DNA of 43,357 bases, from NCBI RefSeq assembly GCF_002159915.1, contig NZ_NFJP01000030.1, positions 1 to 43,357 on the forward strand. The letters run 5' to 3'. Below, piece by piece: positions 15,019 to 17,213 of the stretch. The notes under the pieces are model-generated. The model was given only the letters and a program-made list of their open reading frames with translations, did not search any database and was not told the DNA's origin. This DNA comes from Gordonibacter sp. An230. GTDB lineage: Bacteria; Actinomycetota; Coriobacteriia; Coriobacteriales; Eggerthellaceae. A program made the translations under genes and the position numbers. Each line of letters begins with the position of its first letter. Positions within the stretch are counted from its first letter, which is position 1.

Positions 15019-15094
15019 TGGTGCTCCGTGAAGGACTCGAACCTTCGACCTTGGGATTAAGAGTCCCCTGCTCTACCAACTAAGCTAACGGAGC
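15019..15094 (-). tRNA. tRNA-Lys(CTT)
   Basis: 76-nt cloverleaf on the minus strand. The acceptor GCTCCGT pairs with ACGGAGC, followed by discriminator A and encoded CCA (15019-15021). The anticodon loop CTCTTAA gives anticodon CTT. The T-arm GGTTCGAGTCC is standard. Confidence 0.95.
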
Positions 15095-15177
15095 GTGTGC
15101 TTGCTTCGCTTACGAAGCGAAATGAGATTCTAGATCATTCCGCTCAAACGCGCAAGCCCCTTTTTCAAAAGGCGCGC

Positions 15178-15255
15178 TGGGGTGGATGATGGGACTCGAA
15201 CCCACGACCTCCAGAGCCACAATCTGGCGTTCTAGCCAACTGAACTACACCCACC
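15178..15255 (-). tRNA. tRNA-His(GTG)
   Basis: The minus-strand cloverleaf has acceptor GTGGGTG/CATCCAC, the extra G at -1 (15255) facing C73, and encoded CCA (15178-15180). The anticodon loop TTGTGGC gives GTG. The G-1 is the identity element specific to tRNA-His. It is transcribed ahead of tRNA-Lys, 83 bp apart. Confidence 0.95.
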
Positions 15256-15470: not shown

Positions 15471-17213
15471 GTGGATACCAAACAATCGTCCGAAAAGCGG
15501 TTCGCGCTCTTGATCGATGCCGACAACGTGTCGGCGAAGTACATAAAGCCCATCATCGACGAGCTGTCGAAGTACGGCACCGTCACCTACAAGCGCATCT
15601 ACGGAGACTGGACGCTCGCGCTCCATGCGAAGTGGAAGGACGCGCTACTGGAGAACTCCATCACTCCCATCCAGCAGTTCGGCTACACCCAGGGCAAGAA
15701 CGCCACCGATTCGGCCATGATCATCGACGCGATGGACATCCTGTACACGCGATCGGTCGAAGGTTTCTGCATCGTGTCGAGTGACAGCGACTTCACGCGC
15801 CTGGCCAGCCGCATCCGCGAAAGCGGCCTCACGGTCGTGGGCATGGGGGAGAAGAAGACGCCCGTTCCCTTCCGCAAAGCGTGCGACATCTTCACGACGC
15901 TCGAGCTTTTGCTGCCCGCTTCGGGCGGCAAGGCGAACGGTCGCGGCAAGGGGCGCTCCGAACGGGCGGGGCAGGTCTCTGACGGCCAGAACGGCACCGG
16001 GCCCTCGATCGAGGAGATCGAGCAGGCGGTGGTGAGCATCGTCACCGACAACCAGAACAACGGCAAGTCGACGGGACTTGGCGAGGTGGGCAGCCGCCTT
16101 CTGAAGCGCCACCCCGACTTCGACGTGCGCAGCTACGGCACGAACCAGCTCAAGAAGCTGCTCGACGAGTTCGAAAGCGTCGTCGTCACGAAGGACGGCA
16201 ACTCGGTGACCGTGGAACTGGCCGAGGAGAAGGCGTCTGCCGCCGCGTCAGAGGACGCGCGGGCAGACGCGCCTTCCGAGGACGTGCAAGGCGTCGAGGG
16301 CGCGGTGATCGGGCGCTCTTCGGAGGACGGAGCCGCGTCGTCCGGGGCCGCGCCTGCCGTGGCGGCGGAGCCGAGGCAGCGCTCGCGCCGCTCGTCGCGT
16401 CGTCGGCGCGACCAGGCGGCGGCCCCGGAGGGCGGGCCGACGCCGGAGGCTGCACCCGAGGCTACGGGCGAGGGTTCGGAGGACGGGGCTGCCGCGGCGG
16501 TCGGCCGGGCAGATGAGGCTTCGGCCCCGGCTCTTCAGGCGGAGCGTTCGGACGGTGCTTCCTCTGGCGAGGGCGGGAAGGCCGCTTTGCAGGAGAAGCA
16601 TCGCGAGGCGGCCGCGTCTGAAGACGCGAAAGCTGCGAAGCCCCGGCGTGGTCGTTCTGCCCGCGCCGCCCGCGCCGCGAAGCGCGCGGAGGCTGAGGCG
16701 AAGGGCGCTCAGGCTAAGGTGGCTGGCGACGACGAGCAGGCCGACAGGGCCGAGCAGGGCGAGCCTTCGAGGCGGTCCTCTGCTCGGAAAGCGAAGGAGG
16801 CCGCGCGGGGCGCGTCGACCGAAGCCTCTCGGAGGACCGCGGCGACCGAGGCGCAGTCTGAGTCCGAGGACGCTCGGGAGCGAAAGGGAAGGGCCGCCGT
16901 GCGCACCTCGAAACGTCGTCCCGCGTCCGACGCCTCGCCATCCATCGCTCCTCATTCGGCCTCAAGGGCCAAACGTCCCGCAGAGGCCGCCGAGGCGTCA
17001 GAAACGCCCGAGCAGTTCATCCGCCGCCTCGTTCGCGAGGCCGGCGCCGAGGGCGTGGCGCTTTCGGAGGTGGGCAAGCGCGTGCGCACCCGGTTCCGCA
17101 CGTTCAAGCTGCGCGAGCTCGGCTACACCCAGCTGCGCGCCTACGTGGCCGATCTCGACGACGTGGAGATAGAGAAGCGCGGTCGGGACTTTTACGCCCG
17201 TCTCGGCGAATAG
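15471..17213 (+). CDS. NYN-domain ribonuclease-like protein with two OST-HTH/LOTUS domains
   Basis: About 580 residues from GTG 15471, chosen because AAGGAG ends seven bases upstream. Residues 9-145 form a NYN (PIN-like) domain with the acidic set D16/D18 ('LLIDADN'), D80 ('GKNATDSAMIIDAMD') and D105 ('VSSDSDF'), consistent with metal-dependent RNA cleavage. Residues ~178-250 resemble an OST-HTH/LOTUS domain ('SIEEIEQAVVSIV … LLKRHPDFDVRSYGTNQLKKL'), and residues ~510-578 a second one ('FIRRLVREAG … TRFRTFKLRELGYTQLRAYV'). Between them lies a ~255-residue Ala/Glu/Arg-rich, probably disordered linker. The layout resembles LabA-type bacterial proteins and, in outline, eukaryotic MARF1. RNA targeting by the LOTUS domains is inferred. 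Confidence 0.88.
   Translation: MDTKQSSEKRFALLIDADNVSAKYIKPIIDELSKYGTVTYKRIYGDWTLALHAKWKDALLENSITPIQQFGYTQGKNATDSAMIIDAMDILYTRSVEGFCIVSSDSDFTRLASRIRESGLTVVGMGEKKTPVPFRKACDIFTTLELLLPASGGKANGRGKGRSERAGQVSDGQNGTGPSIEEIEQAVVSIVTDNQNNGKSTGLGEVGSRLLKRHPDFDVRSYGTNQLKKLLDEFESVVVTKDGNSVTVELAEEKASAAASEDARADAPSEDVQGVEGAVIGRSSEDGAASSGAAPAVAAEPRQRSRRSSRRRRDQAAAPEGGPTPEAAPEATGEGSEDGAAAAVGRADEASAPALQAERSDGASSGEGGKAALQEKHREAAASEDAKAAKPRRGRSARAARAAKRAEAEAKGAQAKVAGDDEQADRAEQGEPSRRSSARKAKEAARGASTEASRRTAATEAQSESEDARERKGRAAVRTSKRRPASDASPSIAPHSASRAKRPAEAAEASETPEQFIRRLVREAGAEGVALSEVGKRVRTRFRTFKLRELGYTQLRAYVADLDDVEIEKRGRDFYARLGE

Follow-up and report, generated by a model that had tools for sequence, protein, structure and literature searches.

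Bacterial proteins with LOTUS (OST-HTH) domains form a described family. According to the accessible text of the 2010 account, nearly all of them carry one or two OST-HTH domains after an LK-nuclease (DUF88/NYN) domain, their genes are not consistently linked with known RNA-processing systems, and the eukaryotic LOTUS members are thought to stem from the bacterial ones (PMC2848206). Human MARF1 is described as comprising two RRM and eight LOTUS domains, and the MARF1 NYN domain as a Mn/Mg-dependent endoribonuclease (Asp358, Asp426, Asp427, and Asp452; PMC6294520). Binding of Vasa by LOTUS domains is reported to need a C-terminal extension (PMC5458760). G-quadruplex RNA binding in ELISA has been reported for LOTUS domains, bacterial ones included (PMC12247748), and one group, working on the extended LOTUS domain of Oskar, saw no binding to RNA (PMC5458760). 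Disordered segments of a bacterial RNase have been studied in Caulobacter, in which RNase E is reported to condense through the arginine-rich charge blocks of its disordered tail (PMC10412687).

The DNA analyzed here (the window) is a stretch of 43,357 nucleotides from Gordonibacter sp. An230; a preliminary description made from the sequence alone had correctly named Coriobacteriia as its setting. One gene of the window encodes a protein with the N-terminal NYN domain, the two OST-HTH domains, and the kept acidic residues of the bacterial NYN (DUF88) plus OST-HTH family. This kind of protein is already known, since bacterial NYN proteins with single or duplicated OST-HTH domains were described in 2010, a Coriobacteriia species included: Cryptobacterium curtum appears in the Figure 1 alignment of Anantharaman, Zhang and Aravind 2010 (PMC2848206). 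The long disordered linker between the two LOTUS domains is a lineage-specific feature and the new part of this known architecture. In the open-access literature, no title or abstract start among the matches listed pointed to a comparable linker in a bacterial LOTUS protein; nor did the open-access matches listed include a study of what a bacterial LOTUS protein does in the cell. Genome G004 of our comparisons is presumably that of C. curtum.

The gene and its conserved domains

The reading frame of the gene (Table 1) is open up to its single, terminal stop, and the GTG start is preceded by AAGGAG. A longer frame of 675 residues, starting with ATG at 15186, was rejected; it overlaps tRNA-His (15178-15254) in the antisense direction, making 15471 the better start.

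Table 1. Features of the NYN-LOTUS gene in the window
Feature	Position	Strand	Basis or remark
Whole gene, NYN-LOTUS1-linker-LOTUS2	15471..17213	+	GTG start, 580 residues plus stop
NYN (PIN-like) nuclease domain	15498..15905	+	Profile E 2.3e-36; fold Z 18.6 to mouse MARF1 NYN
Short disordered NYN-LOTUS1 spacer, about residues 151-179	15921..16007	+	pLDDT <50 at 151-174
LOTUS1 / OST-HTH, contains PDFDVRSYGTNQL	16014..16205	+	Pfam OST-HTH match
Linker between LOTUS1 and LOTUS2: 257 residues, disordered, near-neutral, charge-segregated	16227..16997	+	Disorder, tree, and charge tests
LOTUS2 / OST-HTH, basic variant, contains FRTFKLRELGYTQLRAYVA; no C-terminal extension in the model	17001..17186	+	Pfam, AlphaFold2 model

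Pfam and AlphaFold2 confirmed the order of domains that had been proposed at the outset, i.e., a NYN domain and two LOTUS domains with a disordered linker. The Pfam NYN profile, whose search had been suggested as a check, matched residues 10 to 145 (E 1.6e-35, 123.2 bits); NCBIfam gave a sub-threshold NYN match only. The genome has one further NYN match, on contig 67, where a 151-residue stretch gave NYN as its sole match. In the AlphaFold2 model, built with a 38-protein alignment, pLDDT is mostly >90 in both LOTUS domains and in much of NYN, with values of 59 to 81 for blocks of residues 41-80. The model aligned to the NYN domains of mouse MARF1 (Z 18.6, 2.3 A over 141 residues) and human MARF1 (Z 17.6), and Vibrio VPA0982 matched with Z 16.5.

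Scanned separately, the LOTUS1 segment (about residues 182-245) and the LOTUS2 segment (about residues 511-572) scored 35.9 and 39.7 bits, respectively, so both of the segments that had been put forward as OST-HTH exceed the Pfam cut-off of 23.8 bits. They are the only OST-HTH matches in the genome, and 14 control genomes contained none. Structure comparison matched residues 178-252 to the LOTUS domain of TDRD7 (Z 9.3) and residues 508-579 to that of Oskar (Z 8.9), and a profile search of the PDB retrieved the bacterial OST-HTH structures 2kpm and 2kzv. Human DEK, at the top of that search, was discarded because the match is composition-driven, falling on low-complexity linker columns. In the model, LOTUS2 ends with a strand at residues 573-578 of 580, and the strand of LOTUS1 at 245-250 is followed by disorder. 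The C-terminal extension that follows the minimal domain in the extended LOTUS of Oskar, TDRD5, and TDRD7 thus appears to be absent from both modeled domains.

A disordered linker between the LOTUS domains

The linker comprises 257 residues between HMM envelopes and 265 between Pfam matches; of the 255 disordered residues reported in the preliminary description, the disorder stands, and the length becomes 257 to 265 according to the boundaries used. AlphaFold2 assigned pLDDT values of <50 to residues 260-396, 412-437, and 470-499, separated by low-confidence helices at 397-412 and 437-471, and a Pfam scan of the segment between LOTUS1 and LOTUS2 returned no family. The linker is the longest low-hydrophobicity run (280 residues; next longest, 113) among 304 ORFs in a 0.44-Mb sample of the same genome, some of which may not be genes. 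That sample does not include IF-2, in which a hand-cut disordered stretch of about 270 residues is comparable in length.

We compared the junction in 74 tandem LOTUS proteins, namely, the window protein, 16 proteins from sampled genomes of its family (f1), and 57 of 80 named loci. A scan of species genomes with the family profile detected at least 591 relatives, the 80 best of which make up these loci, and distant long-gap forms may have been missed. The gap between the LOTUS domains was 1 to 5 residues in 57 proteins and 64 to 290 residues in 17, with no intermediate values. On a tree of NYN and LOTUS1 columns only, the 17 long-gap proteins formed one Eggerthellaceae clade (support 100/99) free of any short-gap protein, and the length class changed once, a count as low as this being found in 0 of 500 label shuffles. 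This tree omits proteins with a single LOTUS domain (23 of the 80 named loci), duplicates (L015, L016, and L023-L033), and viral loci. We call f1 Eggerthellaceae because L051 (Adlercreutzia), L052 (Eggerthellaceae), and L081 (Senegalimassilia) sit inside the long-gap clade. The sister group comprised 17 short-gap Bacillota proteins, with support (90/81) that is not decisive; by our assumed genus placement they are mostly Lachnospiraceae. Elsewhere in the tree (100/100) fell four further tandem proteins of Coriobacteriia, in which four residues separate the domains. Since short gaps are spread over the remainder of this unrooted tree, a single insertion of the linker is the simplest reading, and a junction of about four residues is probably the ancestral form, the direction of change being inferred from relatives. 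Within the taxonomic class of the window, OST-HTH was detected at E ≤0.001 in 109 of 149 genomes (93 over the cut-off); 17 sampled f1 genomes had the domain and at least 4 lacked it, the corresponding figures for family f3 of the same order being 15 and at least 9. A model of the short-gap tandem of L057 (pTM 0.45) was considered as a source for a fixed LOTUS1-LOTUS2 arrangement and set aside, as it does not settle the relative placement of the domains.

The 17 linkers contain 3 to 16% hydrophobic residues, and 15 of them have a net charge within 0.04 per residue of zero, the exceptions being acidic (G146, -0.17; L081, -0.08). Charge segregation in the window linker exceeds that of shuffled sequences (p 0.010, 0.008, and 0.0165 at windows of 5, 10, and 15 residues; ratio 1.92), with moderate strength, and is among the weaker cases in its clade. 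Sixteen of the 17 linkers reached p ≤0.01 with 10-residue windows and 15 reached p ≤0.013 with 5-residue windows; the G012 linker failed at both window sizes and that of G112 at the smaller one. With flanks included, as in the labeling of a NYN-only tree (see below), three proteins fell short of the 0.01 threshold and of the label: the window protein, G012, and G146. Segments of three other proteins of the same genome were not significant for segregation and are more basic than the linker: IF-2 (270 residues, p 0.39), Rho (135 residues, p 0.059), and RNase J (99 residues, p 0.56), the first two being cut by hand. RNase J (L165, contig 34 of G000) appears to have a basic disordered extension of roughly 90 residues at its N terminus, with the start site assumed. 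Of a possible shared PG-type motif, the form R/K-PGR occurs in 7 of 14 listed members of the f1 long clade and is absent from the window.

We give an even chance to the reading in which the protein is a metal-dependent endoribonuclease guided by its minimal LOTUS domains, and in which the linker sets LOTUS2 at a distance and may favor multivalent assembly with RNA. The NYN domain would cleave single-stranded RNA with the help of a divalent metal, coordinated by D16, D80, D105, and D107. Which RNA is bound (structured or G-rich) would be decided by the two minimal LOTUS domains, and the enzyme would act without an obvious dedicated partner. The charge-blocked linker, which would have arisen once between the LOTUS domains in this Eggerthellaceae lineage, would allow LOTUS2 to contact RNA farther away, on the same molecule or on a different one, and its alternating basic and acidic blocks would add weak contacts with RNA and with one another, gathering enzyme and substrate. 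The nuclease and LOTUS half of this reading, which we consider the most likely mechanism, rests on homology and conserved residues, RNA cleavage and RNA binding being predicted from relatives. To judge by its composition, the linker may contribute charge contacts of a multivalent kind, like those proposed for the arginine-rich charge blocks of Caulobacter RNase E, and assembly or condensation by this means is speculative.

Alternatively, the linker may be a neutral spacer, a GC-rich stretch tolerated at the junction of independent domains in an enzyme that works like its short-gap relatives, which we regard as a real possibility that falls short of being probable. Its length is not tightly constrained and changed later on: in G134, the nearest relative, the linker is just 64 residues long versus 257 in the window protein (193 fewer), within a clade that spans 64 to 290. 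Short tandem repeats of 9 and 21 bases occur within the linker, and third-position GC (0.77 versus 0.87 in NYN and 0.93 in LOTUS1) is lower, as would fit relaxed selection. However, a neutral spacer would not readily explain why the short form is missing from all 17 members of the clade, nor why segregation is kept in 16 of them although the linkers hardly align with one another and the three other disordered segments lack it.

Charge-blocked segments elsewhere and RNase E

Family f3, which we take to be Coriobacteriaceae, has a charge-segregated segment at another position. All 15 of the f3 OST-HTH proteins examined have a single LOTUS domain, separated from NYN by 47 to 141 residues, and the intervening linker is charge-segregated in 14 of them (L022 fails, p 0.92) or in 12 under a stricter rule on length and p. 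A PGDxG motif, often RRRPGDxGG, was seen in 11 of the 15 f3 linkers, which are otherwise variable (L005-L022 except L007, L015, and L016), and is absent from the window. In family f35, of another class, all five proteins examined (L184 and L186-L189, from genomes G221, G161, G231, G270, and G280) end in a tail of arginine runs and acidic repeats, the main tail giving p 0.000 of 200 shuffles in each. L187 and L184 share near-identical acidic/basic repeats resembling EEKPKRRRTTRKKADEEAPAEDAAEATAEEPAE.

Fifteen proteins from Coriobacteriia families f2, f5, f9, and f10 showed no low-hydrophobicity run of ≥40 residues, and none of 12 f33 proteins reached p 0.01 for charge segregation. Eight of nine f2 proteins had no disordered run, and the runs of the ninth, from G104, were not charge-segregated. 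By eye, the NYN protein L174 / L221 of G104 has three LOTUS-like segments with disordered linkers between them; one of these segments scored, weakly. On the NYN-only tree (167 rows, 35 labeled), the long-gap f1 proteins, f3, and f35 formed separate supported groups, and the label changed 12 times, at least 7 of these changes being forced by well-supported branches. This tree rests on 148 columns, leaves many forks without resolution, and omits the duplicates removed above, viral loci, L174, and L220.

The window genome contains RNase Y and RNase J and gave no match to RNase E/G (PF10150). None of 43 sampled genomes of f1, f2, and f3 had RNase E/G, versus 49 of 56 other Coriobacteriia, and six further f1 genomes likewise lacked it. 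We considered the linker as a replacement for RNase E and rejected this idea, the correlation being loose and families f2 and f35 speaking against it. The segment is not simply a substitute for RNase E, because all five f35 genomes with charge-blocked tails have that enzyme, and lacking RNase E does not bring the segment, because the nine f2 proteins lack charge-segregated runs.

A wider proposal is that charge-blocked segments, gained several times at different positions, turn these proteins into condensate-forming RNA-decay hubs, bacterial counterparts of the germ granules and P bodies of LOTUS proteins that would take over the scaffold role of RNase E in a Coriobacteriia order lacking it; we consider this rather unlikely. 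The role of the disordered segment can be tested directly, because close relatives with and without the linker are available, separated by a single change, and the linkers span 64 to 290 residues. Should the segment drive assembly with RNA, RNA bodies made of LOTUS domains and disorder would not be solely a germline invention.

Predicted nuclease site, gene neighborhood, and comparison with known systems

Four aspartates, D16, D80, D105, and D107, are conserved without exception in two protein alignments (17 of 17 and 38 of 38). By order and spacing, D16, D80, and D105 would correspond to residues of the MARF1 site, the intervals being 64 and 25 residues versus 68 and 26 in MARF1. The protein might instead serve as a regulator or scaffold that binds RNA, its NYN fold being idle, and open-access titles and abstract starts, among the matches listed, mention no bacterial NYN-LOTUS protein with measured nuclease activity. 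We hold this to be quite improbable, because an inactive site is not expected to keep all four aspartates in 38 of 38 proteins.

Immediately upstream of the gene, on the opposite strand, tRNA-Lys and tRNA-His occupy positions 15019-15254 of the window. Of 19 related loci, 12 have the tRNA-His/tRNA-Lys pair next to the gene, and in 3 others a different tRNA lies within about 0.4 kb. The flanks of 78 named loci contain 36 tRNAs, of which 20 lie no more than 1 kb from the gene; this interval makes up 21% of the flank. However, only 8 of the 78 loci have a tRNA within 1 kb. An inherited neighborhood explains most of this proximity, because few loci are involved and 13 of the 20 tRNAs belong to one cluster shared by four loci. 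PADLOC gave no match at E up to 0.1, and in the 13 relatives on viral contigs our LOTUS model detected one domain (6 proteins) or none (7 proteins), never two. We consider action on tRNAs or in phage defense, to which the neighboring tRNA pair might point, highly improbable.

A sodium:dicarboxylate symporter gene is present in 10 of the 19 loci and is convergent in 8, as in the window. A DUF4230 gene lies directly downstream on the same strand, at about 80 to 330 bases, in seven of the loci (L043:1947-2570, L037, L041, L042, L045, L046, and L048) and not in the window; its product may be a partner in those seven. No RNA-processing partner of a known kind was found among the identified clusters (14 largest shared clusters of the 19 loci, few of them identified).

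The bacterial family described in 2010 has the same N-terminal NYN domain and two C-terminal OST-HTH domains; in the accessible part of that source, no long disordered segment between the OST-HTH domains is mentioned, and its figure omits nonglobular regions (PMC2848206). The interpretation first given to the window gene holds in part, having missed both that bacterial description and the lineage-specific nature of the linker. Caenorhabditis elegans MIP-1 and MIP-2 likewise combine two LOTUS domains with disordered regions in each protein; unlike the window protein, they are germ-granule proteins that bind the Vasa homolog GLH-1, and the accessible text mentions no nuclease domain (PMC8331183). 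Like BR-body RNase E, the window protein joins an RNase domain, here a predicted one, to a disordered segment in which arginine-rich blocks occur together with acidic ones (PMC10412687), but the catalytic domains are unrelated, the segment is internal in the window protein, and condensation of the latter is speculative. The parallel with MARF1-type regulators drawn in the preliminary description extends to the NYN fold and the LOTUS parts and not to the full layout: the window protein is bacterial, has two LOTUS domains instead of eight, and contains no RRM in a Pfam scan at E up to 1. What it shares with MARF1 (limkain b1) is the NYN fold, the invariant acidic residues, and the presence of several minimal LOTUS domains.
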